Shown piece after piece: positions 12,177 through 28,661 of a DNA stretch of 32,309 bases. Within the stretch, counting starts at the first letter, position 1. Every line of letters starts with the position of its first letter. Under the pieces are notes generated by a model. That model did not search any database, was not told the origin of the DNA, and saw nothing but the letters and a program-made list of their open reading frames with translations. The position numbers and the translations under genes were made by a program. This DNA comes from Anaerolineae bacterium. Lineage in GTDB: Bacteria; Chloroflexota; Anaerolineae; CG2-30-64-16. The DNA is taken from the NCBI GenBank assembly GCA_025454635.1, contig JALOOB010000005.1:1-32309 (forward strand). The letters are read 5' to 3'.

Positions 12177-13163
12177 CTACAACTCCAACCACACCCCGAT
12201 CCCGCGTTCGACTGCGCGACGGTAGACGATGGGCGCGGTCGCCATGTCGTCGATTGCGAGCCCCAGGTTGCACGCAATCGTCCGTTCGCCGGCGGACTCG
12301 CGGCCCGGCTTCTGCCCCGTCACCAACTCGCCCAGGCTCGCATGAATCGGCGGGAGCGACTGGAAGTAGCCGAGCCCGCGGTAGTGCATGAGCTGGGGCA
12401 CGTCGTCGGTGCAGAACTTGTCAACCTCCTGCAAGGCCGCGCCGTCCCAGTACGAGTCGTAATCCACCATCGAGGCGAACGCGCCGCTGTCCAGCCAGCC
12501 CTGCTTGATCGTGGCATGGGGAATCTTGAGGATGGGTCCCGCGGTCACCACGAGGTCGCACCCGGAGACAGCCGCGCGCGGGTCGTCGACCGCAGTTACC
12601 TGAACGCCCGCGCCCCCGATCTCCGGATGCGCGGCCATCTCCGCCGCGTAGCGCGCTGAGTTCGTCGGATTAGCGTCGTATGCCATCACCTGCCTGACCG
12701 GGAACAGGCATTTCAACGCGCGCAAGTTCGTCCGCCCCTGTACCCCGCAGCCGAGAATGCCGACAGTGGACGAGTCGGGCCGGGCCAGATAGCGCGCCGC
12801 GAGCGCAGTGGCCGCGCCGGTCCGCATCCCCGTGACCCAACTCGCATCCATAACCGCCAACGGCAAGCCCGTCTGGTCGTCATTCACGACGATCAGCCCG
12901 CTGATGTAGGGCAGGTTGCGCGACGGGTTGTCCGGGTAGCCGCTCACCCACTTTAGCCCGATGGCGCGCAGGGCCGGGATGTACGCGGGCATGGCGTGGA
13001 TGAAGGAGTCCGCGCCCGACGAGAGGCTTGGCTTGGGCGGCATCTGCGTGTGACCGAGGCCATGCTCGCGAAACGCGACCGCGAGCGCGTCGATGATTTC
13101 GGGCATCGAAACCCCGACCGCTTCGACGTCCGCACGCGACAGATACAACAGCTTCGGCTTCAT
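12177..13163 (-). CDS. ornithine cyclodeaminase / mu-crystallin family protein
   Basis: 328 residues with the Rossmann motif VGILGCGVQGRTNLRAL and the substrate-domain signatures LKWVSGYPDNPSRNLPYISG (conserved Lys and Gly-Tyr) and MRTGAATALAARYLA. The later segment GCDLVVTAGPILKIPHATIKQGWLDSGAFASMVDYDSYW is also typical. The family is NAD(P)-dependent and includes ornithine cyclodeaminase, ketimine and pyrroline-2-carboxylate reductases, and N-alkyl amino acid dehydrogenases; the substrate cannot be assigned by eye. ATG 13163 is chosen for a strong purine-rich SD (GAGGGGGG) and the normal N-terminus; a 36-codon upstream extension looks spurious. It ends the leftward gene run, 10 bases after the EamA transporter, and probably handles an amino or imino acid released by the demethylation enzymes upstream (inference). 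Confidence 0.85.
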   Translation of the reverse strand: MKPKLLYLSRADVEAVGVSMPEIIDALAVAFREHGLGHTQMPPKPSLSSGADSFIHAMPAYIPALRAIGLKWVSGYPDNPSRNLPYISGLIVVNDDQTGLPLAVMDASWVTGMRTGAATALAARYLARPDSSTVGILGCGVQGRTNLRALKCLFPVRQVMAYDANPTNSARYAAEMAAHPEIGGAGVQVTAVDDPRAAVSGCDLVVTAGPILKIPHATIKQGWLDSGAFASMVDYDSYWDGAALQEVDKFCTDDVPQLMHYRGLGYFQSLPPIHASLGELVTGQKPGRESAGERTIACNLGLAIDDMATAPIVYRRAVERGIGVWLEL

Positions 13164-13173
13164 CGTTCCCCCC

Positions 13174-14126: not shown

Positions 14127-14786
14127 TCAGGCCAAACCGCTCAGGTGCGCCCGCACGTCCTCATAGAACTTTGCCACATGGTCGGCCATGATGCGCTCAG
14201 CCGCGGCGGGATCATGCCGCTCGATCGCGTCGACCAGGTCCAAGTGCTTTTCGACCGCTTTCGGCAGCGATTCCGCGTCCGGGTGCTTCGGCCCTGCCCA
14301 TAGCAGATGCCAGAGGCGCAGCGACAGCCCGAAGAAGTGATCGAGCGTCTGCGCCAGGTAGCGGTTGCCCGCGATGGACGCGACGGCCTGGTGGAACTTG
14401 TGGTCGATTTCCAGCAGCCGGCGCGCATCGGCGTCGGCTGCATGCGCGGCGAGCTGTTCCTCCCGCAACGCGCGGAGGACGGCCAGATCGTCCGGCCCGG
14501 CGCGCTGCGCCGCGAGCCGCGCGGCCAGCGATTCGAGCGACAGCCGCAGTTCGCTGATCTGGTCGAGGTCGGGCACGTTGACGTCCGCGACGTAAGTGCC
14601 GTGCCGCGGCGTCACCCGCACGAGGTGGTCGTCGGCCAGCAACTTGAGCGCCTCCTGCACAGGCGCGAGCGGCAGCCCGAGCGACTGCGCAAGCTGCTGC
14701 TCGTTGATCGCCTGCCCGGGCGGCAGCGCCAAGGTGATGATCTGCTCGCAGATCAGGTCGTAAGCCTTCTGTGTGTCAGGTCGCAT
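14127..14786 (-). CDS. GntR-family transcriptional regulator, FadR/FCD subgroup (regulator 1)
   Basis: 219 residues. The N-terminal winged helix-turn-helix (about 1-70) reads KAYDLICEQIITLALPPGQAINEQQLAQSLGLPLAPVQEALKLLADDHLVRVTPRHGTYVADV. The C-terminal all-helical FCD ligand domain contains the metal/ligand-binding residue pattern in EIDHKFHQAV, EKHLDLVDAI and IMADHVAKF. FCD regulators usually repress catabolic genes until a carboxylate-like ligand binds. SD CAGGAG 6 bases before ATG supports the start. It lies 60 bases downstream of the HyuA-like gene and immediately before the EamA gene. It shares family but only moderate similarity with the second FCD regulator at 28005. Confidence 0.92.
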   Translation of the reverse strand: MRPDTQKAYDLICEQIITLALPPGQAINEQQLAQSLGLPLAPVQEALKLLADDHLVRVTPRHGTYVADVNVPDLDQISELRLSLESLAARLAAQRAGPDDLAVLRALREEQLAAHAADADARRLLEIDHKFHQAVASIAGNRYLAQTLDHFFGLSLRLWHLLWAGPKHPDAESLPKAVEKHLDLVDAIERHDPAAAERIMADHVAKFYEDVRAHLSGLA

Positions 14787-14846: not shown

Positions 14847-16889
14847 TTAGCTTAGCCGCGGATTCCCCATCGCCCGCGCTCGAATCCGGTACATATCCAA
14901 CCCGTCCGACTGCTGCTCGACGACCACCTGCGGGTTGTCCGCGCCCGAGCGCAGCGCGCCGCCGAGCGCGCGCTCGCGCGCCAGCGTCGTCGCGCGCGCG
15001 AGCGCAGGCGCGAGGTCGTCGACCTCCGCGCGCTCTTCGCCGGTCTGGACGTAATAGCCCAGCACCTCCAGCCCGATCTCGTTGAGCCGGGGATAGACAA
15101 GCACCTCTTCGCTCACCATTACGCTGCCGGCCACCGCGCCCACCGCGTTCGCCACCTCGTGGTGCGTTGGGAGAATCAGGTCAGTGCGCAGCGCGGCCGC
15201 GACCGGCCCGAGGAACAACCCCGCGGGCGCGCCGATGCCGATGATCGGCACTTTGAGCCGGATTTCGGGCTGCAAGTAGGGGTGCGATCCGTAGAGGCTG
15301 TGGTGGAAGAACCACGGCGCGAACGAGGCATCGCGCTCCGGGTCGACCGCGCCCGGTGGGTCGAGCTTCTTGCCGCTGAGGAACGTGATGATGGCGTGCG
15401 CGGCCATCTCGGTGACGCGCTGCCAGACGCGCGCGCAGACCGCGCCGGGATCGGACCCCCGGCCGCCACCGGGCGCGGGGACGTGGTGGCTGAACACTTC
15501 GAGCGCCAGCCCGGCCGATTCGACATCCCACGGCGCGTGCGAGCCCTGGACGTGCATCAGGTCCGTTGGGGTCAGACCGGCTTTGCCGATGATTTCCTGC
15601 CGGTGCAATTCGGCCGCGTCCAACTGCCCCACGTGGAGGGCTTTGAGCCGCTTCAGCAGCTCCGGCACCGGCTGCGGCCCGTCGCGCAGCGCGTCGATCA
15701 GGGCGATCTGGCGGTTGCTCGCGTCCGCCAGAAAGCTCTGCGGCGGCTCGCGCAGGAGATGCCAGTACTCCAACCAGTCGGGCGAAGCCTGTGACCATTG
15801 CCGCCGGACGAGGGCGTGGAGCCGCTTCGCCACGTCCGGGTGCTCCGCGGCGAGGTGGGCCAGGGGCAGAACGCGCTCGGGGCCGATGGCGAGCTGCCCG
15901 TCCCGCGCGAGGGTGATGTGGCTGTCGCCGCCGAGCGCGATGGAGAGCAGGTTCGCGGCTTGCACCGCGGTCTTATACTCGCCCGCAGGGCCGCCGACGG
16001 ACGCGCCCTCGGCCGAGATGCGCACCTGCCCGCCTTCGATCAGGGCAAGATCGGTTGTCGTGCCTCCCACATCGACGACGAGCGCATCCTCAAGGTGCGA
16101 CAGGAAGCGGCCGCCGATGGCCGACGCGGCCGGGCCGGAGTGGATGGTCTCCACCGGCGTGCGCGCGGCGAACTCGTCGCTCATCAGCGTGCCATCCCCG
16201 CGCACGACCATGAGCGGCGCGACGATGCCCCGACGCTCCATCGCTCGGCGCACGGCGATGATGAAGTCTTGCAGGACGGCCAGCAGGGATGCGTTGAGCG
16301 CGGCCGTCGTTGCGCGCTCGACCGAGCCGAGCCGGGTCGAAAGCTGGTGGCCGAGCACGACGGGGAGGTCGCACACGCGGGCAATCGCGGTGTACGCGCG
16401 CTGCTCGTGCTCCGGGTTAAGCGGGCTGAAATAGCTGGAGACCGCGATCGCGTCGACATGGTCCTTGATCTTGAGGACCTGCGCGAGGATGCCGGCCAGG
16501 TCCAACTCCGCCTTCTCCCGGCCGTACAGGTCGTGGCCGCCGGCGAAATAGAAGTAGTGCGGCGTTGCGAAGCGGGCTTGCAGCTTGAAGTTGGCGATCA
16601 GTTCCGGGTCGTAGCCGATGAGGAAGAGGGCGACGCGCTTACCCTTACCTTCCGCGATCGCGTTCGTTGCGAGGGTGGTGGAAACCGACACCATCGAGAT
16701 CGCGGCGGGGTCTTCGATCCTGATGCCGTCGATGACGTTGTCGATGCCGATGGCAAAGTCCCGCTTGGTGGTGAGGCTCTTGCGGGTGGCGAGGACCTTG
16801 CGCGCATGGTAGGCCAGGAGGACGCCGTCGGTGTACGTGCCGCCGGTGTCGATGCCGAGGACCAGGCTATCGTGATTAACGGTCGACAA
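14847..16889 (-). CDS. hydantoinase/oxoprolinase (HyuA-like) ASKHA-fold ATPase, stand-alone
   Basis: 680 residues. The N-terminal phosphate-binding motif VLGIDTGGTYTDGVLL and the second one, ALVVDVGGTTTDLALIEGG, together with STTLATNAIAEGKG and PVETIHSGPAASAIGG, are hallmarks of the hydantoinase A / 5-oxoprolinase family (ASKHA ATPases). The usual partner subunit HyuB is absent. The gene lies directly behind corrinoid proteins and MttB-family genes. Known corrinoid activators (RamA) are also ASKHA proteins but carry an N-terminal ferredoxin domain; none is seen here and cysteines are few. Plausible roles are ATP-driven corrinoid maintenance or a hydrolase acting on a cyclic amide; neither can be decided from the sequence. 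The start is TTG 16889, with AAGGGG 7 bases upstream. It is transcribed after the methyltransferase at 16989. Confidence 0.85.
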   Translation of the reverse strand: MSTVNHDSLVLGIDTGGTYTDGVLLAYHARKVLATRKSLTTKRDFAIGIDNVIDGIRIEDPAAISMVSVSTTLATNAIAEGKGKRVALFLIGYDPELIANFKLQARFATPHYFYFAGGHDLYGREKAELDLAGILAQVLKIKDHVDAIAVSSYFSPLNPEHEQRAYTAIARVCDLPVVLGHQLSTRLGSVERATTAALNASLLAVLQDFIIAVRRAMERRGIVAPLMVVRGDGTLMSDEFAARTPVETIHSGPAASAIGGRFLSHLEDALVVDVGGTTTDLALIEGGQVRISAEGASVGGPAGEYKTAVQAANLLSIALGGDSHITLARDGQLAIGPERVLPLAHLAAEHPDVAKRLHALVRRQWSQASPDWLEYWHLLREPPQSFLADASNRQIALIDALRDGPQPVPELLKRLKALHVGQLDAAELHRQEIIGKAGLTPTDLMHVQGSHAPWDVESAGLALEVFSHHVPAPGGGRGSDPGAVCARVWQRVTEMAAHAIITFLSGKKLDPPGAVDPERDASFAPWFFHHSLYGSHPYLQPEIRLKVPIIGIGAPAGLFLGPVAAALRTDLILPTHHEVANAVGAVAGSVMVSEEVLVYPRLNEIGLEVLGYYVQTGEERAEVDDLAPALARATTLARERALGGALRSGADNPQVVVEQQSDGLDMYRIRARAMGNPRLS

Positions 16890-16988: not shown

Positions 16989-18506
16989 TCAGACGAACAT
17001 CTGCACGTCGAGTTCTTCGTCCTTGTGCCGCGCATCCGCGAGCTCGCAGATGCGGCGGAGCTCCTGGTACATCTTCGGCTCGAGCAGCGGCGCGGCGTCC
17101 GCCTCGAGGATTTCGACCATGCGCTCCTGCACGCGCTGCTGGTAGTCCTTGCAGCCGCTCGTCTCCCAGTCGGCGTACACCTGCCGGTCAGTCAGGGCAG
17201 AGCGCCAGTTTTCCGTCTTGAAGCGGTTGTAGGTGTGGTCGTGGCCGAGGAAGTGGCCGCCGGGGCCGACCTGATCGAGCACGTCCAGCGCCTGCGTGTC
17301 CGCGTTGACCGGGATGCCGCGTAGGATCCGCTTCGTCCGGCTGATGATCTCATCCGACGCAACGAGCATGTGCGGGCTGCTGCACAACCCCTGCTCGATG
17401 TAGCCGATATCGTGGATCATGTTGCCGCCGATCATTGCGGCCGTGCTGATATTGATCGCGGCTTCCATGCAGGCCTGCTCGTCGAAGCATTTCGCGTCCG
17501 AGCAGCCGGCCGTCTCATACTCGGGCACGCGCATCCACTTCGTGATCTCGGTGTAGCCCGCGCTGAGCAGCGCCATTTCCGGCGAACCATACGGGTACAC
17601 CGCGGTCTGCATGTCCATCGCGGACATGAGGCCGCCGATGATGACCTGGCAGCCGGGCTTGCGAAGCTGGCTCAGCACGATGCCGAACAGGCTCTCGGTG
17701 AGCGCCTGCACCATCAGGCCGGCGAGGGTCGCGGGCGCAGTCGCGCCGGCGAGCGGGCACGGCGTGTAGACAATGGGGATGTCGTTGTCCGCGCAGAAGA
17801 GCAGCTTCTGGATGACTTCCTCGGAATGGCTCAACGGGGAAACCGGCTCGTTGTAGAGCGAGAAGCAGGGCGCCTTCTTCCACTCTTCCTTGCCGCCCAG
17901 CCGGATATAGGCCATTTCGAGCTGGTCCTTGAGGCCCTCGATGTCGACCGCGGTGATGTTGATGGGCTTGTTCGTCGCCTCCAGCATGGCAAGGTATTGC
18001 CAGCGGTCGTAGGTGCCGACCGCGGTGTCCTGCGTGATGCCAAGCGACATGAAGAAGTCGACGTTCGGCAGCGCCTCGGCCAGCTTGGCGAGGTTCCTGA
18101 CGTCCTTGTAGGTGGCGCGGCGGCGGACCTGGGTGTAGGGGTCGATGGTGAAAGGCGTGTCGGAGCCAGTGCCGAAGTACATCGTGTTCTTGTACAGGTC
18201 CATGTTGTACTTCCGCTTGCCGTCCCCGTCGGGGGTGCCGATCACGCGGATGCGCTGCGGAAGGGTGGCGCGGGCCTTGTCGACCATCCACGATGGCATC
18301 TTCACGAGCGCGCTGTCGGCCTGGACGTCCTCGACCACCGCGCCGCCCTGGTGGGCCAGGTCCCAACCCTCTTTGTCGTAGACGCGGACGCCGGTCTCGG
18401 AGAGGACCGCGAGCGCCGCGTAGTAGATCGCCTCGATCTGGTTCTCGGTCAACACCTGCATCGTCGGCGTCATGTTGACCGTGTAGTTGTTCTTGCGTAC
18501 TTGCAT
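16989..18506 (-). CDS. MttB-family (non-pyrrolysine) corrinoid-dependent methyltransferase 1
   Basis: 505 residues, full length for the trimethylamine methyltransferase superfamily. Typical segments are YFGTGSDTPFTID, EPVSPLSHSEE, YTPCPLAGATAP, GCSDAKCFDEQACMEA, HDVGYIEQG and GGHFLGHDHTYNRFKTENW. There is no internal amber codon, so it belongs to the non-Pyl branch. Characterised members of that branch (MtgB, MtpB, MtcB) demethylate glycine betaine, proline betaine or carnitine and pass the methyl group to a corrinoid protein. The substrate here is not predictable by eye. SD GAGGTGAG 6 bases before ATG 18506 supports the start. It is preceded by the DUF1638 and corrinoid-protein genes, which together look like one functional cassette. 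Confidence 0.92.
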   Translation of the reverse strand: MQVRKNNYTVNMTPTMQVLTENQIEAIYYAALAVLSETGVRVYDKEGWDLAHQGGAVVEDVQADSALVKMPSWMVDKARATLPQRIRVIGTPDGDGKRKYNMDLYKNTMYFGTGSDTPFTIDPYTQVRRRATYKDVRNLAKLAEALPNVDFFMSLGITQDTAVGTYDRWQYLAMLEATNKPINITAVDIEGLKDQLEMAYIRLGGKEEWKKAPCFSLYNEPVSPLSHSEEVIQKLLFCADNDIPIVYTPCPLAGATAPATLAGLMVQALTESLFGIVLSQLRKPGCQVIIGGLMSAMDMQTAVYPYGSPEMALLSAGYTEITKWMRVPEYETAGCSDAKCFDEQACMEAAINISTAAMIGGNMIHDIGYIEQGLCSSPHMLVASDEIISRTKRILRGIPVNADTQALDVLDQVGPGGHFLGHDHTYNRFKTENWRSALTDRQVYADWETSGCKDYQQRVQERMVEILEADAAPLLEPKMYQELRRICELADARHKDEELDVQMFV

Positions 18507-18537: not shown

Positions 18538-18580
18538 GCCAGCGAAGCTGGCGTTAACGTTAAGGCCGCGGGCCTTAACG
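18538..18580 (-). repeat. two consecutive hairpins spanning the DUF1638 stop codon
   Basis: A small hairpin GCCAGC-GAA-GCTGGC (18538-18552) sits next to a perfect 10-bp stem CGTTAAGGCC / GGCCTTAACG with a 3-base loop (18558-18580). The second stem includes the TAA stop codon of the DUF1638 gene. They lie 30-70 bases upstream of the methyltransferase 1 start and may tune expression between these genes by processing or attenuation. No U-tract is present. Confidence 0.6.
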
Positions 18581-19297
18581 CATGAACATGGCTTGTTCGA
18601 TTTGAGAGCCGGGCGGGATGACGAGATAGTCTGCCGCCATGCCTTCGGGCAGACTGCCCGTGTCGCGCAGGTGGATCGCCGCGCGGATCAGTCCGTCCAC
18701 GTAGTCATCGGAGCCGAGCACTTCCTCGTAGGTCATGCCCCAGCGCTCGCAGAAGCGGGCCACTTCTTGCGCCCGCTCGCGGTATTGCGCCATTTCCTCG
18801 TGGTTGGGCGCGACCAGCGCGATCCGCTTGTAGTGACTGTACTGCTGATCCATCAGCCACATCGCGGTTTGCTCGCCCCAGCGGACCGAGTATTCATTGT
18901 ACTCGCGCAGCGGATCGCTCCCCGATTCCAGCCAGCCCTTCGTGAGATAGTAGGTGCCCGGTTCGGTCTGGAAGCGGCGGATGTAGGACCGGTACGAGCC
19001 GAGCAGGATGGCAATGCAGTCGTCCGTGCGCGGCACGAGCAGCGTGTGTTCGCGCGACTCGATCCCCCGCAAACCGTTGCCGCACAGCCCGTAGCCCAGG
19101 ACGATCAGGCTCGGCGCCTCCACCATGTCGATGGCGGCTTGGACGCCGTCGGTGAGCTTCACGGGCACACGGTGGAGACCGTAATCCAGCACCGTCACCT
19201 CGCGCGCCAGGTCCGCGGGCAGCAGGCGCTCCAGCGCGCTGACGAGCACGCGACACGTAATGATCACCACGGGCGGCGCGAGATGGGTGTCGCTCAT
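18575..19297 (-). CDS. DUF1638 domain protein
   Basis: 240 residues. The N-terminal part PPVVIITCRVLVSALERLLP, the segment IDMVEAPSLIVLGYGLCGNGLRGIES and LLVPRTDDCIAILLGS carry three conserved cysteines in positions typical of DUF1638 (TCR, GLCGNG, DDCI). The later segment EPGTYYLTKGWLESG is also characteristic. No enzymatic role is firmly known for the family. The conserved Cys residues could bind a metal or thiol ligand (inference). It begins 4 bases after the corrinoid-protein stop and is followed by methyltransferase 1, which places it within the demethylation system. Possible roles are corrinoid or methyl-group handling. ATG 19297 is used, since an upstream extension would overlap the corrinoid gene. 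Confidence 0.85.
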   Translation of the reverse strand: MSDTHLAPPVVIITCRVLVSALERLLPADLAREVTVLDYGLHRVPVKLTDGVQAAIDMVEAPSLIVLGYGLCGNGLRGIESREHTLLVPRTDDCIAILLGSYRSYIRRFQTEPGTYYLTKGWLESGSDPLREYNEYSVRWGEQTAMWLMDQQYSHYKRIALVAPNHEEMAQYRERAQEVARFCERWGMTYEEVLGSDDYVDGLIRAAIHLRDTGSLPEGMAADYLVIPPGSQIEQAMFMR

Positions 19298-19301
19298 GCG
19301 T

Positions 19302-19943
19302 CTATGCCGCGCCGACGAACTTCTGCGCCAACTCGGCGCCCGCGGGGGCGTTCGAGCCGTAGCCGTCCGCGCCGATGCGCTTGGCGAACTCGGCATCGAC
19401 CGGCGCGCCGCCGACCATGATCTTGACGCGATCGCGCAGGCCGGCTTCCTCGATAGCCTTGATGGTGTGGCCCATCGCGCGCATCGTGGTGGTGAGCATG
19501 GCGGACATGCCGATCACTTCGGGCTGGTGGTTCTTGATCGCCTCGATGAAGTTCTCCGGCTCCACGTTGAAGCCGATGTCTACTACCTCAAAGCCCGCGC
19601 CCTCGCACATCATGCCGACGAGGTTCTTGCCGATGTCGTGCAAGTCGCCCTTAACGGTGCCGAGCACGACCTTGCCGATCTGCTTGTGGCCGCTGGCGGC
19701 CAGCTCGGGGCGCAAGACGACCATCGCGGCCTGCATCGCCTCCGCGGACATGAGGACTTCCGGCACGAACATGTCGCCCGCGCGGAAGCGCACGCCGACT
19801 TCCTGCATCCCGACGAGCAGGCCGTTTTCCAGGACTTCCTTCGCGGAAGTCCCTTCGGCCAGCGCTTTCTTCACCAGATTTGGCATCTTCTCCGCTTCCC
19901 CTTCGAGGATAGCGGTGGACATCTTTTCGAGTAGTTTGCTCAT
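19302..19943 (-). CDS. methyltransferase corrinoid protein 1 (MtbC-like)
   Basis: 213 residues. A helical cap domain (about 1-85, with VLENGLLVGMQEVGVRFRAGDMFVPEVLMSAEAM) precedes a Rossmann-like B12-binding domain with the lower-ligand motif GDLHDIGKNLV, in which the His coordinates cobalt, and the distal signatures GMSAMLTTTM and VMVGGAPV-like IMVGGAPVD. It shuttles methyl groups between MttB-type enzymes and a second methyltransferase acting on tetrahydrofolate or another acceptor. SD GAGG lies 5 bases before ATG, just after the stop of methyltransferase 2. It is closely similar along its whole length to corrinoid protein 2. Confidence 0.95.
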   Translation of the reverse strand: MSKLLEKMSTAILEGEAEKMPNLVKKALAEGTSAKEVLENGLLVGMQEVGVRFRAGDMFVPEVLMSAEAMQAAMVVLRPELAASGHKQIGKVVLGTVKGDLHDIGKNLVGMMCEGAGFEVVDIGFNVEPENFIEAIKNHQPEVIGMSAMLTTTMRAMGHTIKAIEEAGLRDRVKIMVGGAPVDAEFAKRIGADGYGSNAPAGAELAQKFVGAA

Positions 19944-19951
19944 GGTTGCCT

Positions 19952-21415
19952 CTACTTCTTATCCTTCACGCGATCCTCGGCCTCGGCAAGGACCTTCTCG
20001 ATGACCTGCATGGTTTCGGGCTTCACCTGCGACGGCTTGTGCGTCGCCAGGACGTCGCGGACGCGGGCCACCGTACGCTGCTTCATGGTGAGGCTGCCGC
20101 TGGACTCCCAGTTCTCGAAGTCTTGCCGGTCCAGCAGCTTGGGGTAGAAGTATTCGCTCTTGTAATACTTGCGGGTGTGCGGCTGGCGCAGGTAGTGGTT
20201 GTTCGGCCCGACCTTGTTGATAACGTCGACGGCGAGCGTGTCGTCGTCCACCTCGATGCCGCGGATGATGCGCCGCGAGTAGCCGATAGCCTCATCCATT
20301 GCGCACAGTTGGAAGAGCGAGCCGGTCATCGCGCTCTCAGTGTAGCCGACGTCATGGCAGAGGTCGCCCGAGGTGAGCGCGGAGAAGAAGACCGACATGG
20401 CGCCTTCGATCATGGCCTGTCCGTCGAACGTCTTGGAGTCAGTGCAGCCGCCGGTCTGCCACAGGGGCAGGCCCGCGTAATGCGCCAGCTCGGTGAGGCC
20501 GGCCATGTAGAGCGGCAGTTCGGGCGCGCCGTAGGCGAGGATCATCGTGTTCATGTCCATGGCCGAGAACACGCCGCCCATGAAGAACGGCAGGCCCGGC
20601 TGGAGGGTCTGCGCGAGGGTCAGGCCCATCCACGATTCGGCCGCGCCCATCGTGATGATGCCGGCGCCCGTGATCGGCGCGGTGCCGCCCGCAATGGGGC
20701 ACGGGGTGAAGACGAGGGGCACGCGGTGCGTCGCGGCAAAGATCAGCTTGTCGATGGCCTCGAAGGTGCTGACCAGCGGCGAGAGCGGCTCGCAGTAGTG
20801 GACGTAGTTGGGCCGCTGCTCGAACGCGCGCTGTCCGCCCGCTTCCGCCACCGCGATCTCGTGAATGCCCGCGGAGTCGTACTTGTCATAGGACCAGGCG
20901 ACAATGGGCTTGGAAGTGTTCGGGAACATCCCCGCGAACTCGTAGAGCGCGCCGAGGTCGAAATGGACGTCGCCCACGGTGCCGAGCGACTCGCAGAAGT
21001 CGATGTTCGGCAGCGCGTCGACCAGGCGGGCCACGAGCGGGACGTCCGCCTTCGTGTACGGGCGGCGCTCAAGCGTCTCGGGGTCGATGAAGTGGGTGCA
21101 GGTCGGGCCGGGGCCGAAGTGGGCGCGGCCGGGGCCGATGTGGATATTGTGCTTGGGGTTACCGTCGCGCGCCCACAGTGTGAAGCTGCGCGGGGCCTTG
21201 CGGAGCGCATCCTTGACCATGTAGGAGGGGAGACGCACCCGCTCGCCGTCGACCCAGGCGCCGGCCTTGGCCAGGATGTCGCGCGCCTCTTCGTGCTTCA
21301 CGTCGAGGCCGGTGTACATCAGGAGGTGGAGCACGCCGTTGAACATCTCCTCCAACTGGTCCTGCGAGAAGACGTTAAAGCGGACGCCGGCATTAGCTAC
21401 GTAATTCGTCCTCAT
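19952..21415 (-). CDS. MttB-family (non-pyrrolysine) corrinoid-dependent methyltransferase 2
   Basis: 487 residues with the superfamily pattern: HFGPGPTCTHFID, CEPLSPLVSTFE, FTPCPIAGGTAP, GCTDSKTFDGQAMIEG, HDVGYTESAM, and NNHYLRQPHTRKYYKSEYF near the end. No internal amber codon occurs. The gene does end in TAG, but at the normal family length and with another stop a few codons later, so this is ordinary termination. The SD (GAGG) overlaps the stop of corrinoid protein 2, suggesting translational coupling with it. It probably transfers a methyl group from a quaternary or tertiary amine to that corrinoid protein. The N-terminal substrate region differs clearly from methyltransferase 1, implying a different substrate. 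Confidence 0.92.
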   Translation of the reverse strand: MRTNYVANAGVRFNVFSQDQLEEMFNGVLHLLMYTGLDVKHEEARDILAKAGAWVDGERVRLPSYMVKDALRKAPRSFTLWARDGNPKHNIHIGPGRAHFGPGPTCTHFIDPETLERRPYTKADVPLVARLVDALPNIDFCESLGTVGDVHFDLGALYEFAGMFPNTSKPIVAWSYDKYDSAGIHEIAVAEAGGQRAFEQRPNYVHYCEPLSPLVSTFEAIDKLIFAATHRVPLVFTPCPIAGGTAPITGAGIITMGAAESWMGLTLAQTLQPGLPFFMGGVFSAMDMNTMILAYGAPELPLYMAGLTELAHYAGLPLWQTGGCTDSKTFDGQAMIEGAMSVFFSALTSGDLCHDVGYTESAMTGSLFQLCAMDEAIGYSRRIIRGIEVDDDTLAVDVINKVGPNNHYLRQPHTRKYYKSEYFYPKLLDRQDFENWESSGSLTMKQRTVARVRDVLATHKPSQVKPETMQVIEKVLAEAEDRVKDKK

Positions 21416-21422
21416 GGATACC

Positions 21423-22058
21423 TCACGAAACCAGTTTGCGGGCCAGTTCGGCGGCGGATGCGGCGTTGGGCGCGTATCCGTCGGCGCCGATCTGGTTGGC
21501 GAACTCTTGCGTGACCGGCGCGCCGCCGACGATCACCTTGACGCGGTCGCGCAGCCCGGCCTCTTCGAGCGCCTTGATAGTGTGGCCCATGACGCGCATC
21601 GTCGTCGTCAGCAGGGCGGACATGCCAATCACGTCGGGCTGGTATTCCTTGATCGCCGAGACGAACTGGTCGGGGGTGATGTCCTTGCCCAGGTCCTTCA
21701 CCTCAAACCCGGCGCCTTCGGCCATCATGCCGACCAGGTTCTTGCCGATGTCGTGCAGGTCGCCCTTGACGGTGCCCAGCAGCAGCTTACCCGTGTGCTT
21801 CACCCCGGCTTCAGCCAGGATCGGGCGCAGCAGGTCCATCGACGCCTGCATGGCCTTGGCGGAGCGCAGCACCTCCGGCACGAACATGTTGCCGGCCTTG
21901 AATTCGGCGCCGACGTGATCCATTCCGGCCATTAGTCCCTTGTTGAGAACCTCCTGCGCGGGAATCCCGTCGTCGAGGGCCTCCTCGGTCAGGTCGACGA
22001 TATCTTCCACGTTACCGTCGATAATGGCCTCGGAGAGTTGGACAAGAATTTCGCTCAC
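21423..22058 (-). CDS. methyltransferase corrinoid protein 2 (MtbC-like)
   Basis: 211 residues, with the same two-domain layout as corrinoid protein 1 and the cobalt-ligating motif GDLHDIGKNLVGMM. VIGMSALLTTTMRVMGHTIKALEEAGLRDRVKVIVGGAPVT is nearly identical to its paralogue. The start is GTG 22058 with a full AAAGGAGG 6 bases upstream. It stands directly before methyltransferase 2, and 71 bases after the DAO-type subunit gene, so it is probably co-transcribed with the dehydrogenase genes. The close similarity of the two corrinoid proteins suggests duplication of a corrinoid-methyltransferase cassette. Confidence 0.95.
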   Translation of the reverse strand: MSEILVQLSEAIIDGNVEDIVDLTEEALDDGIPAQEVLNKGLMAGMDHVGAEFKAGNMFVPEVLRSAKAMQASMDLLRPILAEAGVKHTGKLLLGTVKGDLHDIGKNLVGMMAEGAGFEVKDLGKDITPDQFVSAIKEYQPDVIGMSALLTTTMRVMGHTIKALEEAGLRDRVKVIVGGAPVTQEFANQIGADGYAPNAASAAELARKLVS

Positions 22059-22129: not shown

Positions 22130-23329
22130 CTATGCGGCCGCGCGTACTGCGGCCGCGTCTTGTATGAGATCTCCAAACCGGCCGGGCCAGACGGTCCGAG
22201 CCAGTCCTGAAGTCGCCTGACTCTTGCCGTAGGCCGGGTCGATCAGCCAGCGGGCGATGATTTCGCCCGTCACCGGGGCAAGGCCAATGCCCGCCCCTTC
22301 ATGTCCTGTCGCAAGGTACAATCCCGGGACGCCGGCCACCGGCCCGATCAACGGCAGGTGGTCGGGGCTCCACGGACGCAGCCCGGCATACGCCCGGATC
22401 ACGTTGCGCTCCGCAAGCGCCGGAAGATAACGCATCGCGCGTGCCGCAATGGCCTGGGCGACGGCCCGCGACACAGACCGGTCAAATCCAACGAATTCCC
22501 GGCTGCTGCCGAGGAGGAGCGTGCCCCCCGCCGTCATCTCCGCAACCAGCGCGACCTGAGCCGCAGATGTGTCGGCGTGGACTGATGCCGCGTAGCTGCC
22601 TTCGAGCAACGGGTGTTGGATCATGCCCGGCGCCGCGGAGGTCACGAGGATCGTGCCCTTGCGCGGCCTGACCGGCAGTTGCAGCCCGGCGGAGGCCGCT
22701 ATCTCGTTGCTCCACACGCCGGCGGCAAGGACGAAGGCGCCGGCCTCGATTTCGCCCTCGGTCGTTAGGGCCGCGACCACCCTCCCGCCGGCGTCCCTGC
22801 GCAGCCCCGTCACGGAGACCCCTTGCCGGAGTTCCGCCCCGCACCGCCGCGCGGCCTGCAGGAGCGCGAGCGTGGCCCGCCGCGCGTCGACTTGCGCCTC
22901 GTCGAGGTAGTAGATCCCGCCGGCCAGATCGGGCGCGAGATTCGGTTCGAGGGCCAGCAGCCCCGCCGCGTCCAGCATCTCGACTTTCACGCCGCAGCCA
23001 CAGCGGTCGATCGCCTGTTTTCGACCGGCCTCCAGCCCCTCGACCGTGGCATAGACGACGATGACGCCGGTGTTGCCGTACTCGAAGTCGAGATCGAGGC
23101 CCTCGGCCAGCCCCGCCCACAGCCCGGCGCTCACCTGCGCCAACTCCAGTTCTGCGGGCGAGGTCTTGTCGCAGCAGAGGATCAGCCCGTCACAGGCTCG
23201 CGAGGTCCCCGCGGCGGGGAAATCGCGTTCGAGAGCGAGCACGGACAGCCCTGCGCGCGCGAGCGAGTATGCGCATGCCGCGCCCACGATGCCCGCGCCG
23301 ATGACCGCGACGTCAGGCATGCGGCTCAT
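22130..23329 (-). CDS. DAO-type FAD oxidoreductase, beta subunit of an HcnC/opine-oxidase-like dehydrogenase
   Basis: 399 residues. The FAD-binding motif VIGAGIVGAACAYSLARAG near the N-terminus and the C-terminal RAYAGLRPWSPDHLPLIGPVAGVPGLYLATGHEGAGIGLAPVTGEIIARWL identify the DAO superfamily (sarcosine/glycine/proline-type amine oxidation). The start ATG 23329 overlaps the upstream TGA (ATGA), giving strict coupling to the FAD/BFD subunit. In HcnABC, opine oxidase and D-hydroxyproline dehydrogenase-type complexes this subunit oxidises the C-N bond and passes electrons through the other subunits. N-methyl amino acids such as dimethylglycine or sarcosine are plausible substrates given the neighbours (inference). 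Confidence 0.88.
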   Translation of the reverse strand: MSRMPDVAVIGAGIVGAACAYSLARAGLSVLALERDFPAAGTSRACDGLILCCDKTSPAELELAQVSAGLWAGLAEGLDLDFEYGNTGVIVVYATVEGLEAGRKQAIDRCGCGVKVEMLDAAGLLALEPNLAPDLAGGIYYLDEAQVDARRATLALLQAARRCGAELRQGVSVTGLRRDAGGRVVAALTTEGEIEAGAFVLAAGVWSNEIAASAGLQLPVRPRKGTILVTSAAPGMIQHPLLEGSYAASVHADTSAAQVALVAEMTAGGTLLLGSSREFVGFDRSVSRAVAQAIAARAMRYLPALAERNVIRAYAGLRPWSPDHLPLIGPVAGVPGLYLATGHEGAGIGLAPVTGEIIARWLIDPAYGKSQATSGLARTVWPGRFGDLIQDAAAVRAAA

Positions 23330-24738
23330 GCGGCATCCCCTGCCGCTTCCAGCGCGGCAAGCGCGCCAAGGGGCAGCGGCCGCGCGGGTGGCCGCACCGC
23401 GAAAGTGCCAGCCGCCTCCGGCGAGCACCCCGCTTCCGCTGCGATAAGCCGGCCGGCGATGGGGCCGCATGTGCGGCCCTGGCATGGTCCCTGGCCGATG
23501 CGCGTCCAGACCTTCAGCGCGTCGAGCGTCCTAATGCCTGCGGCCTCTCTGACCGCGGCCCGGAGTTCGCCGGCGGTTACTTCCTCGCACCGGCAAACGA
23601 TCGTTTCGTCCGTAATGATCTCTGACAGCCCGCCCGGTGGCGCGCAGACCGCGTTCAGCATGCCGGCAAACCGGAGTTCGCGCTTGCGGCGCCCGGCGAG
23701 CCCGGCCTTCGCGCGCTCCAGGTCGTCCTGGGAGAGAGCCCCAAGCCGGCGCGCGGCCGCGAGGCCGGCAACGCGTCCGGTCAGCAGCGCCAGCCCGGCG
23801 CCACCCACGCCGCCTGTTTCGCCGGCCACAAACAGGCCGGACGCAGTGCTCTCGAGGTTTTCGTCGACCTGTGGCGCCCAGCCCCCGCGCAGCGGATCGA
23901 AGACCATCCATGCGCCGGCTAGCTGCGCCAGTTCGACGTTTGGCGTGAAGCCGAAACTCACGCAGAGCGCGTCGACGGCCACGACTGAGCGACCCTCTCG
24001 CAGCGGCCGGCCCGCTCTGTCCAGGGGAGCGACGGTAACCGATTCCACCCGCTCCGCGCCCTGCGCTGCGACGACTGCGCTGCCGAAGCGATAGGCAACG
24101 CGCGCCTTGCGCAGATCGCTTAGGTAGCGCCACCCTTCCGCAAAGCGACCGCCCTGCCCCCGCGCCGCCGGTGCGTGGCTGAGCCATTGCGCAGGCCGGC
24201 TGGCTTCGAGCACCGCGACGACCGTGGCGCCGAGAGCGGACAGCTTCGCCGCGACCGCGAGCAGGAGCGGTCCGGAGCCCGCGACGAGGACGCGCCGGCC
24301 CGGCAAGACCCCGTGCCGCTTGGCGAGAAGCTGCGCCGCGCCCGCCGTCATCACACCCGGCAGGGTCCAGCCGGGGAAGGGCGCCACTTGTTCGCGCGCC
24401 CCCGACGCCAGCACGATCGCGCCCGCGGCGAGGGTGGTCGCCCGGCCATCCGCAAAGAGGCCGAGCGTTAAGCCCGCTTCGACATTCCAGACCGTCACGC
24501 CGGGCCGCCAGTCGACCTGCCCCGTCTCCAGCCGCCGCAGCAGGTCGCCGCCAAGGCGCTCGCTTTCCGTGAGCGCGCCGCCGTGCGCATGGCCGGGCAG
24601 CAGGTATTGTCCGCCAGGGAGCGAACGCTCGTCGAGCAATGCGACGCGCAGGCCGCATTCTGCTGCCGCCAGCGCGGCTGCCAGCCCTGCCGGTCCCGCG
24701 CCGACGACGGCCACGTCGACGGTCTCAAGCGCGGGCAT
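23326..24738 (-). CDS. FAD/NAD(P)-type oxidoreductase with BFD-like 2Fe-2S domain, alpha subunit (HcnB/OoxA-like)
   Basis: 470 residues. A first dinucleotide-binding motif VVGAGPAGLAAALAAAE lies near residue 10 and a second, VLVAGSGPLLLAVAAKL, near 150. GLFVAGETGGVGGAGLALLTGRVAGL is the third FAD-contact region. The C-terminal part carries a CxC...CxxxxC set (IVCRCEEVT and GPCQGRTCG), the BFD-like [2Fe-2S] domain of HcnB, OoxA and LhpB-type subunits. ATG 24738 is preferred because GAGGA lies just upstream, overlapping the stop of the small ferredoxin gene; GTG 24750 is an alternative that would overlap that stop. It links the DAO-type subunit to the small 2Fe-2S subunit in an electron-transfer complex. 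Confidence 0.9.
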   Translation of the reverse strand: MPALETVDVAVVGAGPAGLAAALAAAECGLRVALLDERSLPGGQYLLPGHAHGGALTESERLGGDLLRRLETGQVDWRPGVTVWNVEAGLTLGLFADGRATTLAAGAIVLASGAREQVAPFPGWTLPGVMTAGAAQLLAKRHGVLPGRRVLVAGSGPLLLAVAAKLSALGATVVAVLEASRPAQWLSHAPAARGQGGRFAEGWRYLSDLRKARVAYRFGSAVVAAQGAERVESVTVAPLDRAGRPLREGRSVVAVDALCVSFGFTPNVELAQLAGAWMVFDPLRGGWAPQVDENLESTASGLFVAGETGGVGGAGLALLTGRVAGLAAARRLGALSQDDLERAKAGLAGRRKRELRFAGMLNAVCAPPGGLSEIITDETIVCRCEEVTAGELRAAVREAAGIRTLDALKVWTRIGQGPCQGRTCGPIAGRLIAAEAGCSPEAAGTFAVRPPARPLPLGALAALEAAGDAA

Positions 24739-25027
24739 GGGTTTCCTCACGCAGGGGCGCCTGCGCCGCGCCGGTCGATACGCGCATGCCCGGCCGAACG
24801 AGGGTCATACAGGCGCGTTGATCCGGGATGTTGTCGATGGTGACGAGGCAGTCGAAGCAAACGCCCATGCCGCAGAAGACGCCGCGCGGCCGACCGCGCG
24901 CAGTGCGGCGAAAAACAAGAATGCCTGCCGCAAGCAGGGCGGCCGCGACCGTCTGCCCGGCCACGGCCGGAACGTCGCGGCCGTCGAGGTCGATCATGAA
25001 GCGATCATCCTCGGGTTGAGGAGGCAT
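24725..25027 (-). CDS. 2Fe-2S ferredoxin-like small subunit (HcnA/gamma type)
   Basis: 100 residues. Cysteines at about 52, 57, 60 and 73 form the C-x4-C-x2-C-x12-C pattern of plant-type [2Fe-2S] small subunits (FCGMGVCFDCLVTID, QRACM). The N-terminus FMIDLDGRDVPAVAGQTVAAALLAAG is typical of the HcnA/SoxA-N family. The SD is weak. The 3' end overlaps the alpha-subunit gene. It is the first gene after the strong promoter at 25112-25140 and therefore heads the long leftward operon. It passes electrons from the flavin subunits to a membrane or soluble acceptor. Confidence 0.9.
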   Translation of the reverse strand: MPPQPEDDRFMIDLDGRDVPAVAGQTVAAALLAAGILVFRRTARGRPRGVFCGMGVCFDCLVTIDNIPDQRACMTLVRPGMRVSTGAAQAPLREETHARA

Positions 25028-25095: not shown

Positions 25096-25140
25096 GAGGT
25101 GATATATCAACAGTATATCAATGCGCCGCTCCGCTGTCAA
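25096..25140 (-). promoter_or_regulatory. consensus promoter and candidate operator of the dehydrogenase/methyltransferase operon
   Basis: Read on the minus strand: TTGACA (25135-25140), 17 bases, TATACT (25112-25117), then 4 bases, ATATAT (25102-25107), 2 bases, CCTC. The promoter hexamers are almost perfect. TTGATATA occurs twice, 11 bases apart, around the -10 box and start point. The same arrangement TATACT-N4-ATATAT-N2-CCTC recurs at the promoter of the FCD regulator at 28005, which suggests control by that regulator. Confidence 0.75.
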
Positions 25141-25179
25141 GCCGGATGGAAGGCGTTGCGCGCCAATCGCGGCTCCCGG

Positions 25180-26391
25180 TCAGTGATGGCCGCGCAGGAA
25201 GCTGTCGCCGGCGGAGACAACGCCTTCGGCGTAACGCGTCGGACGGAGCGCGTTGTCTTGCGGGTCCATGACTCCGGTCATCAGGTCTGCAACGCGCTTT
25301 CCTGCCGCTGCCCCCAGCATAACCCCGGCCCAGTATCCGCAGTTGAGATACAGACCCGGCGCTTCGGGCAGCGGCCCGATGAGCGGCTGGTCGTCGGGGG
25401 TGTAGACGTACTGACCCGCGCTCAGCAGCACATCCTTGTGCTTCAGCCCCGCGCAGACCTCCTCCCAGAACGGCGTCAGCGGGATGAGTTTGTCGAGCGT
25501 GTTGGCGGCGAAGTCCCACTCGGTCGGCAGATGCTCGCTCGGCTGGCGGATCGCGTCGTCGGGGTCGACCCAGGCAATGAACGCGCCGCCCGTCTCCGGC
25601 CGCCAGTACGCGTCGCGTCCAACGTCGATCACAAGCGGCGCGTCCTGGGGGATTTGCGGCTTTGGCGTAATGTAGGCCTTCTGCCGCCGCATCGGCGTGA
25701 GAGGCAACTCCACGCCGGCCATTTTTCCGACGATTCCCGCGAACGGGCCCGCTGCGTTCACCACGCGCCGCGTGGCGATGGTTCCCCGGTCGGTCTCGAC
25801 CGCGCAGATGCCGGCCGCGTCGCTGGCGATGCCGGTCACACGCGTGCCCACAAGGAACGCCGCGGAAGCCCCCTGAACGAATCCCTGCAGCACTGAGTGG
25901 CTGGAGAACGCGCCGTCGCGCTGGCGGAAGGTTGCGGCGACGGCGGTCTCGGAGATGTAGGGGAAGTGGCGGCGGATCTCCGCCCCGTCGAGGTATTCGG
26001 AGTCCGTCACGCCGAGCTCGCGGTGTTTGCCGACAGCCGCCTTGAGGCTGGGCGCAAGCGCGGGGTCGTCCGTTACGAACAGGTAGCCCGAGTAGCGCAG
26101 GCCGATATCGTAGCCGGGCAGGCCCGTAATATCGGCAAAGTTCTCGTGAATGGCGATGCTTTGCAGCGCCAGCTCGCACATGGCCGGCTCGGTGAACTGC
26201 GCGCGGAACGACTCGATCGACTGCGCAGACGTCAGGCTGCCCAATTCGCCGCGCATTTCGAGCAAAACGGTGGAGAGGCCCGCCCGCGCGAGCCAGAACG
26301 CCGTAGCGACGCCGACCATGCCGCCACCCACCACCACTACGTCGGCCGTCTTCGGCCATGTTTCCGTCGTTGGAATAAGGACCTTGCCCAT
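25180..26391 (-). CDS. FAD-dependent DAO-family oxidoreductase (second amine dehydrogenase/oxidase)
   Basis: 403 residues with the FAD motif VVVVGGGMVGVATAFWLARAG, the mid segment RVVNAAGPFAGIVGKMAG, and the C-terminal YVYTPDDQPLIGPLPEAPGLYLNCGYWAGVMLGAAAGKRVADLM. This is the DAO superfamily layout of sarcosine-, dimethylglycine- or glycine-oxidising enzymes. It differs considerably from the DAO-type subunit at 22130 and has no iron-sulfur partner genes of its own. GGAGG 6 bases before ATG 26391 fixes the start; the frame is open far upstream but overlaps the methyltransferase gene. It follows methyltransferase 3 by 14 bases, so it may oxidise the demethylated product of that enzyme (inference). 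Confidence 0.88.
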   Translation of the reverse strand: MGKVLIPTTETWPKTADVVVVGGGMVGVATAFWLARAGLSTVLLEMRGELGSLTSAQSIESFRAQFTEPAMCELALQSIAIHENFADITGLPGYDIGLRYSGYLFVTDDPALAPSLKAAVGKHRELGVTDSEYLDGAEIRRHFPYISETAVAATFRQRDGAFSSHSVLQGFVQGASAAFLVGTRVTGIASDAAGICAVETDRGTIATRRVVNAAGPFAGIVGKMAGVELPLTPMRRQKAYITPKPQIPQDAPLVIDVGRDAYWRPETGGAFIAWVDPDDAIRQPSEHLPTEWDFAANTLDKLIPLTPFWEEVCAGLKHKDVLLSAGQYVYTPDDQPLIGPLPEAPGLYLNCGYWAGVMLGAAAGKRVADLMTGVMDPQDNALRPTRYAEGVVSAGDSFLRGHH

Positions 26392-26405
26392 CGGAAGCCT
26401 CCTGA

Positions 26406-27869
26406 CTACGCCAGGACCGGCGCTTCGAACCTCTGCCGCAGAACCTCCGCAATCGTCGCCTCGGCTTCGGCGGAGAGGGGCGGCGCGTGGTGTTCCTTCA
26501 GGAGCCGCCGCGCTCGCTCGTTGGCGCGCGTCGCCATGTCTTTGCTGCCCTTCGCAGCCCAGTTTGCGTACCGCATACGATCGACTACGCGCGGACGCCA
26601 CTGCGCCCACTTCCAGTTCTCCAGTGTGTGGTCGTCTGCGAAGAATCCGGCGCCCGGTCGCGCTCGGCCGATGGCGGCGCGCGCCAGCGTCCGCTCGCTG
26701 ACCTCCACGCCGTCGACGATGAACCGCGTATGCCCGATGATCTCGTCGCAGATCACGAGCAATTCCATGCTGGAGGTGCTGCCGTACTCGATGTAGCCCA
26801 CGTCGTGGACCAGGTTGCACCGGCTGAGGAAAGCGGTCATGATCGTCGACGTGGCCTCAAAGCCCGCCTGCGCGTCGACTACCTTGCTGTCCGACGCGCC
26901 CGCGCCGCCCCAGAACGGCAGCCGGTAGTGCCGCGCCATGTCGCCAAACGCGGCCATTGCCTGGCCCCAGTCGGGCGCGCCATACGCGATGATGGTCGTC
27001 TGCATGTCCAGCGCGGCCACGTTCATCCCGTACAGGAACGGCGTCCCAGGCCGGACGAGTTGCGTCAGCACGAGCCCCGCGAGGCACTCCGCGTTGCCGA
27101 GCGCAATCGCGCCGGCGACGGTGATCGGTCCGCCGCCGCCGGTGTTGGGCGAGGGCGGATAGGCGACGGGGATGCCCTTCTCCGCGCAGAAGAGCAGGTT
27201 GTCGAGCGACTCCTCGTTGTACAGCAGGGGCGAGATAGGCTCCGCGTAAAGCATCAGGAAGGGTCGCGCGCGCAGTTCGGCCTCGCCGCCCGCGACCGCG
27301 CACGCAATCCGGTAGATAGCTTCCATGTCGCGGCGGTCGCGCGCAGTGTACACGTTGGGCTTAACGGAGCCGCGTATCATCCGTATGAAGCTGTGGACAT
27401 AGTGGTCCATCGTCGGCACGTCGCTCGGGATGCCCATCGACATCACGAAGTCGATATTGGGCAGCGCGTCGCATAACTGCGCGAACCGCTCGACGTCGGC
27501 TGCCACCGATGCCCGGCGCTCGCGCGTCTCCACGTCGACGGTGAACGGGCAATCGGACCCCGGGCCGAAGAACACTTTTCCTTCCTCCAGGGGCATGGTC
27601 AGTTCGCCGAGACGGTTATGCATCGGAATACGCGAGGGCGCAGACGCAAGCGCTTGCATCACGAGGCGCTCGGGGATGAGGATGCGCGAGCCGGCTTGCG
27701 ACGCGCCCGCGTCGAGGAGCAGACGGCGCGCCCTGTCCGACCGTAGCTCGATGCCTGTTGCCGACAGGATGTCGAGGCTGGCGCTATGGATGGTCCGGAT
27801 TTGCTCGTCCGAGAGCATCCGAAGGGTGGGGCGGTAAGTGGAACACGCGATTTGCTCGGTCACTGGCAT
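26406..27869 (-). CDS. MttB-family (non-pyrrolysine) methyltransferase 3
   Basis: About 487 residues with superfamily segments FFGPGSDCPFTVD, AEPISPLLYNEE, GASDSKVVDAQAGFEA, HDVGYIEYGS and GAGFFADDHTLENW. The cysteine-containing TPCP segment of methyltransferases 1 and 2 is replaced by PPSPNTGGGGP. No internal amber is present; the terminal TAG is at normal length. Three starts are possible: ATG 27878, ATG 27869 and GTG 27863. GGAGAGG just upstream serves 27863 with ideal spacing and 27869 with short spacing. There is no corrinoid gene beside it, so it may share the two corrinoid proteins of the core operon. It is divergent from the FCD regulator at 28005 and followed by a DAO-type oxidoreductase. 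Confidence 0.9.
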   Translation of the reverse strand: MPVTEQIACSTYRPTLRMLSDEQIRTIHSASLDILSATGIELRSDRARRLLLDAGASQAGSRILIPERLVMQALASAPSRIPMHNRLGELTMPLEEGKVFFGPGSDCPFTVDVETRERRASVAADVERFAQLCDALPNIDFVMSMGIPSDVPTMDHYVHSFIRMIRGSVKPNVYTARDRRDMEAIYRIACAVAGGEAELRARPFLMLYAEPISPLLYNEESLDNLLFCAEKGIPVAYPPSPNTGGGGPITVAGAIALGNAECLAGLVLTQLVRPGTPFLYGMNVAALDMQTTIIAYGAPDWGQAMAAFGDMARHYRLPFWGGAGASDSKVVDAQAGFEATSTIMTAFLSRCNLVHDVGYIEYGSTSSMELLVICDEIIGHTRFIVDGVEVSERTLARAAIGRARPGAGFFADDHTLENWKWAQWRPRVVDRMRYANWAAKGSKDMATRANERARRLLKEHHAPPLSAEAEATIAEVLRQRFEAPVLA

Positions 27870-27900
27870 CCTCTCCATTGCGGAAGCCGCCGAAAAGTGC

Positions 27901-27945
27901 TTGACAGGCGGCAGGGCGGGTAGTATACTCAGAATATATTGCCTC
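27901..27945 (+). promoter_or_regulatory. consensus promoter and candidate operator of FCD regulator 2
   Basis: TTGACA (27901-27906), 17 bases, TATACT (27924-27929), 4 bases, ATATAT (27934-27939), 2 bases, CCTC (27942-27945). The -10 box lies within the palindrome AGTATACT, and an AATATATT palindrome is centred 11 bases further on. The same composite occurs at 25096-25140. Because methyltransferase 3 is transcribed divergently from here, one operator could control both directions and the regulator itself. Confidence 0.75.
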
Positions 27946-28004: not shown

Positions 28005-28661
28005 ATGGCGGTAACCGATACCCAGCGGGCTTACGAGCTGATCCAGGAAAAGATCGTGACCACCCAGATGCCCCCCGGCTCGGTGATCCACGAGGCATCA
28101 CTGATGGCCGAAATTGGACTCGGCCGCACCCCTATTCGCGAGGCGCTCAAGATGCTCGAGGCGGAACGGCTCGTCACCGTGTCCCCTCGCCGAGGCATGT
28201 TCGTCACCACCATCAATATTTCCGACCTGGCGGAGATTCAGGAAGTCCGCTCGGTCCTTGACTTGTTAAGCGTCCGCCTTGCCGCGCAGCGCATCACGCC
28301 GGCCGAAGTGGCCGAACTACGCGCCCTCCTGCGGGAGATCGACGTCGCGCTTCAGAGCGGGACGGGAAACGGTCACAGGGCCGCCGACATGCGTCTCCTG
28401 ATGACGCTGGACACGCGCTTCCACCGCCTGCTGGCCGCTGCCGCCCGCAACTCGATCCTGATCTCCGAGATCGAGATGCTTTACAATCTCTCCCGGCGCA
28501 TCTGGTATTACTACCTCGACCGTCTCTCGCCGGAAGATCTGGCTTTCCACGCTTTCCCCGAGGTGGTCGAAGCCCTGGAACAGCGGGACGCCGACCGCGC
28601 CGAGCGCGCCCTCTCCGCCCATATAGCCGACTTTAGCGTGGCGATTCGCAAGCGTCTGTGA
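28005..28661 (+). CDS. GntR-family transcriptional regulator, FadR/FCD subgroup (regulator 2)
   Basis: 218 residues. The winged helix-turn-helix reads AYELIQEKIVTTQMPPGSVIHEASLMAEIGLGRTPIREALKMLEAERLVTVSPRRGMFVT. The FCD domain follows with the putative metal/ligand residues in LDTRFHRLLAAAA, EVVEALEQRD and LSAHIADF. SD AAGGAG 7 bases before ATG 28005 fixes the start; the frame is open 22 codons upstream but that part overlaps the leader. It is the only rightward gene in the right half, divergent from methyltransferase 3. The motif shared by its promoter and the core operon promoter makes autoregulation and control of the core operon likely. Confidence 0.92.
   Translation: MAVTDTQRAYELIQEKIVTTQMPPGSVIHEASLMAEIGLGRTPIREALKMLEAERLVTVSPRRGMFVTTINISDLAEIQEVRSVLDLLSVRLAAQRITPAEVAELRALLREIDVALQSGTGNGHRAADMRLLMTLDTRFHRLLAAAARNSILISEIEMLYNLSRRIWYYYLDRLSPEDLAFHAFPEVVEALEQRDADRAERALSAHIADFSVAIRKRL

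Follow-up and report, generated by a model that had tools for sequence, protein, structure and literature searches.

Two promoters in the window (the whole stretch of 32,309 nucleotides of an Anaerolineae genome analysed here) read alike over 45 nucleotides, one ahead of a methyltransferase operon and the other ahead of a regulator gene of the FCD type. This raises the question of whether both carry the operator of that regulator. The 45-mer on the minus strand (25140-25096) is TTGACAGCGGAGCGGCGCATTGATATACTGTTGATATATCACCTC and the one on the plus strand (27901-27945) is TTGACAGGCGGCAGGGCGGGTAGTATACTCAGAATATATTGCCTC; both follow TTGACA-N17-TATACT-N4-ATATAT-N2-CCTC exactly. In our reading, which rests on comparative sequence analysis and to which we assign a probability of about 0.82, sites S1 and S2 would be operators of the regulator FCD1, built into sigma-70-type promoters, and FCD1 would be an autoregulated repressor of methylated-amine/betaine demethylation.

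Gene cluster and genomic uniqueness of the two sites

The following genes of the cluster surround the two sites:
26406-27869, minus strand: MttB-superfamily methyltransferase, divergent from FCD1 (PF06253, 4.7e-98, open frame)
25180-26391, minus strand: FAD-dependent amine oxidoreductase of the DAO family (PF01266, 3.5e-47)
24725-25027, minus strand: 2Fe-2S ferredoxin-like (Fer2) subunit, the first gene behind P1/S1 (PF13510)
23326-24738, minus strand: SoxA-like NAD(P)/FAD subunit (PF07992, PF17806; the TIGR01372 match is below its cut-off)
22130-23329, minus strand: DAO-family subunit with the glycine/sarcosine-oxidase fold, matching glycine and sarcosine oxidases
21423-22058, minus strand: corrinoid protein, MtbC-like
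19952-21415, minus strand: MttB-superfamily methyltransferase, nearest solved structures 2qne and 9yce (glycine betaine methyltransferase)
19302-19943, minus strand: second corrinoid protein
18575-19297, minus strand: DUF1638 protein
16989-18506, minus strand: further MttB-superfamily methyltransferase
14847-16889, minus strand: hydantoinase-A/ASKHA protein, which may still belong to the P1 operon

S1 precedes the closely spaced minus-strand run Fer2-SoxA-DAO-corrinoid-MttB-corrinoid-DUF1638-MttB, and between 13100 and 25200 no minus-strand promoter-like match was found besides P1. S2 lies within a 135-bp gap ahead of the divergent MttB-DAO pair, which may be co-controlled through it. The methyltransferase of this pair has no internal TAG and is therefore not of the pyrrolysine type. 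An ornithine cyclodeaminase/mu-crystallin family protein (12177-13166, minus strand) is encoded beside that end of the cluster where the EamA transporter lies.

No third copy of the 45-mer with up to 3 mismatches is present in the window, where shuffled sequences give an expectation of 0. Across the assembly (4.55 Mb in 549 contigs, 76.8% complete) the pattern TATACTNNNNATATAT matches at S1 and S2 only; no 19-mer with 1 mismatch was found there, and matches with 2 mismatches are about as frequent as for the reversed-pattern control. The two sites are 2.8 kb apart. Their flanks and spacers are unrelated, so a recent duplication is excluded and the idea that S1 is a copy of S2 was discarded.

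Layout of the proposed operators and promoters

The predicted regulatory features are:
25112-25140, minus strand: promoter P1, with -35 TTGACA at 25140-25135, a 17-bp spacer and -10 TATACT at 25117-25112, the -10 lying within the left box of S1
25101-25119, minus strand: operator S1, GATATACT-GTT-GATATATC, two 8-bp palindromic boxes with centres 11 bp apart
27901-27929, plus strand: promoter P2 of the FCD gene, TTGACA-N17-TATACT
27922-27940, plus strand: operator S2, AGTATACT-CAG-AATATATT

P1 and P2 are the only two promoter-like matches between 24900 and 28100. Their start points are predicted near 25105, within the right box of S1, and near 27936, within the right box of S2. Both operator boxes are near-palindromic, and 36 sites upstream of FCD genes (at most 1 mismatch) define a conserved core, RRTATAYY-N3-RRTATAYY, whose right box is preceded by T and followed by A. 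Beyond this core the columns are nearly free of information, hence CCTC lies outside the element. In the same 36 sites the left box mostly holds TATACT or TATATT, which reads as a putative -10 hexamer, and in 16 cases a -35 that matches at 4 or more of the 6 positions is found 16-18 nt ahead of it, against 4.4 for random positions.

Further boxes keep to an 11-bp register, being found at -22 in 14, at -11 in 26 and at +11 in 10 of 40 cases, with a mean of 1.2 elsewhere. The operator roughly follows the consensus TRATATAYYA, its second box being equal in strength to the first. With their ATATAT cores, most boxes do not conform strictly to the GT..AC consensus published for the FadR subfamily. 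A single 19-bp dyad bound by one dimer is possible and was less favoured, as some boxes are 22 bp apart and some arrays comprise at least three of them. In the held-out loci described below (among L191-L265), an extra box-like signal was seen at -23 from the anchor, off the 11-bp register, in 19 of 46 upstream regions.

The original prediction had taken the whole composite as the operator and had placed both ATATAT and CCTC beyond promoter consensus. The ATATAT element is supported, as its fixed spacing is kept near genes of the regulator's close family; TTGACA belongs to an ordinary promoter, and CCTC was dropped from the operator because it is not conserved in relatives. The many unrelated occurrences of the composite that would have spoken against the prediction did not appear in the genome scan, which gave 2 sites in 4.55 Mb. 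The long composite was rejected as a search motif for other genomes, since a class-wide scan with TTGACAN{15,18}TATACTNNNNATATA also catches unrelated promoters and sites of other regulators, and the 19-mer core was used instead.

Conservation with the regulator family

Two FCD regulators are encoded in the cluster:
28005-28661, plus strand: FCD1, a GntR-type wHTH plus FCD regulator of 218 aa (Pfam GntR PF00392, 2.9e-17; FCD PF07729, 1.4e-23)
14127-14786, minus strand: FCD2, a sister regulator with the degenerate recognition helix LPLAPVQEAL, in the hydantoinase-like operon and without an operator of its own

Both domain matches of FCD1 are above cut-off, which places it in the FadR/FCD subfamily of the GntR superfamily. 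Its recognition-helix segment GRTPIREAL is nearly unchanged in the operator-bearing homologues. The PDB matches of the FCD1-family profile include the GntR-family chain 6z74, which we take to be Atu1419, and related entries. By alignment, without a structure, the recognition-helix Arg that corresponds to Arg45 of Atu1419 is retained in FCD1 and in its operator-bearing relatives; in Atu1419 this residue contacts an operator guanine (PMC7797058).

We scanned 400 bp upstream of 55 FCD1-type homologues from Anaerolineae genomes, picked on protein similarity alone. The 19-mer was found exactly at 18 of the 55 and with at most 1 mismatch at 32, against 0 and 0.025 in shuffles. When spacers from N0 to N13 were tried upstream of these genes, exact matches were obtained at N3 only. 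Some FCD1 homologues have no nearby site; several of them are located inside operons, which accounts for the absence there. A held-out set of 60 previously unused loci, many from Actinomycetota and other Chloroflexota, was then obtained by a profile scan of genome contigs; having been selected on the peptides GRTPIREAL and PRRG[MT][FY]V, and thus sampling regulators with this recognition helix, it gave 11 exact sites, 16 with at most 1 and 35 with at most 2 mismatches (shuffles 0, 0.01 and 0.28). A single TGATATATCA box, allowing one mismatch, is present at 41 of these 60 loci, against 0.55 in shuffles. As a negative control, distant FCD regulators of the class yielded 0 exact sites in 23 and 2 in 23 with at most 1 mismatch.

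These counts bear on the simplest objection, that two strong sigma-70 promoters are alike by chance and the ATATAT and CCTC matches are coincidental. TTGACA-N17-TATACT is indeed near consensus, and for CCTC, which is unconserved, the objection stands. For the ATATAT element it is refuted by the fixed N3 spacing, the recurrence in many genera ahead of one regulator family, the near-zero counts in shuffles and the presence of 2 sites in 4.55 Mb, which makes chance an extremely improbable account of the sites as a whole. We regard the element as a putative DNA switch that is conserved across two phyla, beside one regulator family and beside genes for betaine-type uptake and demethylation.

The operator could instead serve another protein, such as FCD2 or an FCD1/FCD2 heteromer, as the FCD2 gene belongs to this cluster and probably to the S1-driven operon. 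This is very unlikely, though, given that none of the 25 FCD2-type paralogues scanned as a further negative control, which mostly follow a hydantoinase-like gene, has an exact site upstream, that FCD2 has lost the arginines of GRTPIREAL, and that many site-bearing genomes are without an FCD2-clade member in the tree. FCD2-type proteins form a separate branch without sites; the GRT arginine is lost in most of this clade and the operator is upstream of none of its members. FCD2 may be a partner that does not read DNA or is differently targeted. Phylogenetic footprinting ties the element to the close family of the 28005 regulator, FCD1, and we infer that FCD1 very probably binds S1 and S2.

Sites and neighbouring genes in other genomes

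The closest comparison is G003, of the same family and a different genus, whose FCD1 orthologue has about 64-66% identity. Upstream of its FCD gene the sequence is TTGACA-N17-TATACT-CACA-ATATATC, with the operator GATATACT-CAC-AATATATC (L033:18485) in a place equivalent to S2. A second site (L085:6668), in the position equivalent to S1, precedes the Fer2 gene and heads a ferredoxin/SoxA/DAO/corrinoid/MttB operon, and a third, weaker site follows a DAO gene (L033:10761). It had been predicted that the regulator would have its operator near its own promoter and that its regulon would include the core operon. The former agrees with the position of S2 in P2 and with the upstream sites at 32 of 55 FCD1-type genes; the latter is borne out, as far as conserved position can tell, by the site ahead of the core operon in this second genus. 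Among other genomes, the site heads an operon containing FCD1 in G331, G191 and G070 (L087, L131 and L133 are loci with this arrangement), and G303 has it in the region separating FCD1 from a divergent MttB operon.

A search of 20 whole genomes for the exact 19-mer gave about 30 sites, with 0-3 in each genome, against 2 for the reversed control. Ten of the 13 distal exact sites flank genes for betaine uptake or methyl/C1 metabolism, a fit judged by eye afterwards and without a matched random set. Genes for ProV and choline dehydrogenase (both above NCBIfam cut-offs) and for MTHFR are found at the distal sites of G191, and OpuAC-type binding proteins at those of G243 and G213, the G213 call coming from near-identity to the G243 protein. 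The distal site of G109 adjoins a DAO-GcvT fusion of the dimethylglycine-dehydrogenase type, that of G058 a GcvT-like protein, and those of G178 a DAO gene and a NuoE-like gene. A NuoE-like gene was also detected in G331, a NuoG/formate-dehydrogenase-like protein in G003 and HdrA in G359. At the other three of the 13 distal sites (G147:C404, G243:C157 and G179:C501) there is no obvious fitting neighbour.

Proposed mode of regulation

In each operator the -10 TATACT falls within the upstream box, and the predicted start point within the downstream one. FCD1 dimers sitting on both boxes in the absence of inducer would shut RNA polymerase out of P1 and P2, and most simply one dimer would occupy each box, adjacent on one face of the DNA; the 11-bp recurrence of the boxes fits this stoichiometry. 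The exclusion of polymerase would repress both FCD1 itself and the Fer2-SoxA-DAO-corrinoid-MttB operon, and a betaine-type or N-methylated metabolite would release FCD1. A methylated-amine or betaine-type metabolite is likely as the inducer; that it is specifically betaine, choline or an N-methylglycine has about an even chance.

Some members of the GntR family act as activators, and the regulator often heads, or sits in, the operon under its presumed control. An activating or mixed role of FCD1 at S1/S2 is nevertheless unlikely: the boxes overlie the -10 and the predicted start, where a bound protein normally gets in the way of polymerase, and the hexamers of P1 and P2 are already near-consensus. 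The characterised relatives Atu1419 (PMC7797058) and NanR (PMC8012715) are, moreover, repressors. From these points we infer that FCD1 probably represses at S1 and S2.

Residues D136, H140 and H206 are invariant in the FCD1 alignment. The ligand set of the metal site in the FCD domain presumably consists of one Asp and three His. At a further presumed metal-site position many relatives have His, while FCD1 and its nearest orthologues have Phe or Leu. This replacement of the presumed third metal-site His may change the metal or effector site of FCD1.

Comparison with known systems

The closest architecture is that of Atu1419 from Agrobacterium fabrum, an FCD-family GntR repressor whose 10-bp palindrome, ATGTATACAT, overlaps the -10 box and which regulates a catabolic cluster as well as the region of its own gene (PMC7797058). 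Common to both are the FCD/GntR protein, a short palindromic site at the -10 box, putative in the case of FCD1, and control, likewise putative for FCD1, of catabolic genes and of the regulator's own gene. However, Atu1419 is a tetramer whose palindromes are about 109-190 bp apart, with looping (PMC7797058), whereas here at least two adjacent boxes, mostly ATATAT-cored, are in 11-bp phase. NanR of E. coli, also an FCD/GntR repressor, has repeated GGTATA boxes in the promoter region, as S1 and S2 have repeated boxes, and several dimers bind there cooperatively (PMC8012715). Its boxes are three GGTATA repeats and not 11-bp-phased palindromes, and its cooperativity needs an N-terminal extension of 32 residues (PMC8012715), which is absent from FCD1, whose wHTH match begins at residue 7 of 218.

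In a comparative survey, operators of the FadR subfamily follow the consensus NyGTM-N0-1-KACNy with TKGT/ACMA boxes, 13 FadR groups have additional, weaker boxes at 7-12 nt from the centre of the site, and single-site divergons are described (PMC4494728). A/T-rich palindromes near the regulator's own promoter are common to these operators and ours, but the extra boxes of the survey are weaker (PMC4494728), while the second box here is as strong as the first. With respect to the survey's consensus, only the left box of S2, AGTATACT, contains GTATAC; the remaining boxes are GATATACT, GATATATC and AATATATT. The terms trimethylamine and sarcosine are absent from the survey text (PMC4494728).

No paper naming TGATATATCA or GATATATC together with GntR was found in the open-access subset, which is weak evidence of novelty, and none presenting the FCD1 regulator was found in the literature on MttB/GntR, betaine/GntR and MtgB/regulator, covered mostly at the level of titles and abstracts. 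FCD-type GntR repressors are known; the operator layout here is unusual in its 11-bp phasing. An uncharacterised FCD family gains a defined, testable DNA target and a candidate gene set. In uncultured Chloroflexota, knowledge of the corrinoid/MttB and sarcosine-oxidase-like clusters has so far come mainly from gene content; a specific operator, with 0-3 exact copies per genome, makes it possible to list probable target genes by sequence and points to substrates. One regulator would group betaine uptake, demethylation and C1 oxidation in several genomes. A broader scheme is possible but doubtful in its entirety, namely a regulon for betaine/methylamine demethylation and C1 oxidation spanning Chloroflexota and Actinomycetota, governed by an undescribed FCD family whose dimers would bind cooperatively to 2-4 palindromic boxes spaced by one helical turn, one of them enclosing the -10, and in which FCD2, its arginines lost, would be an accessory sensor or partner.

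Other matches to the promoter composite

Some class-wide matches to the composite precede unrelated regulators, such as PadR-like ones. At L099 (G386:C41, about 8604) a composite with a longer ATATAT palindrome lies ahead of a small gene judged by eye to encode a PadR-like regulator, so the combination of promoter and ATATAT is found with regulators outside the FCD type too. Similar composites were found at L086 (G009:C268, about 6723) and L091 (G179:C501, about 2346) ahead of a gene starting VTTLFFATDVHGSD. By eye this gene resembles a metallophosphoesterase, and both genomes, G009 and G179, carry FCD1 orthologues.
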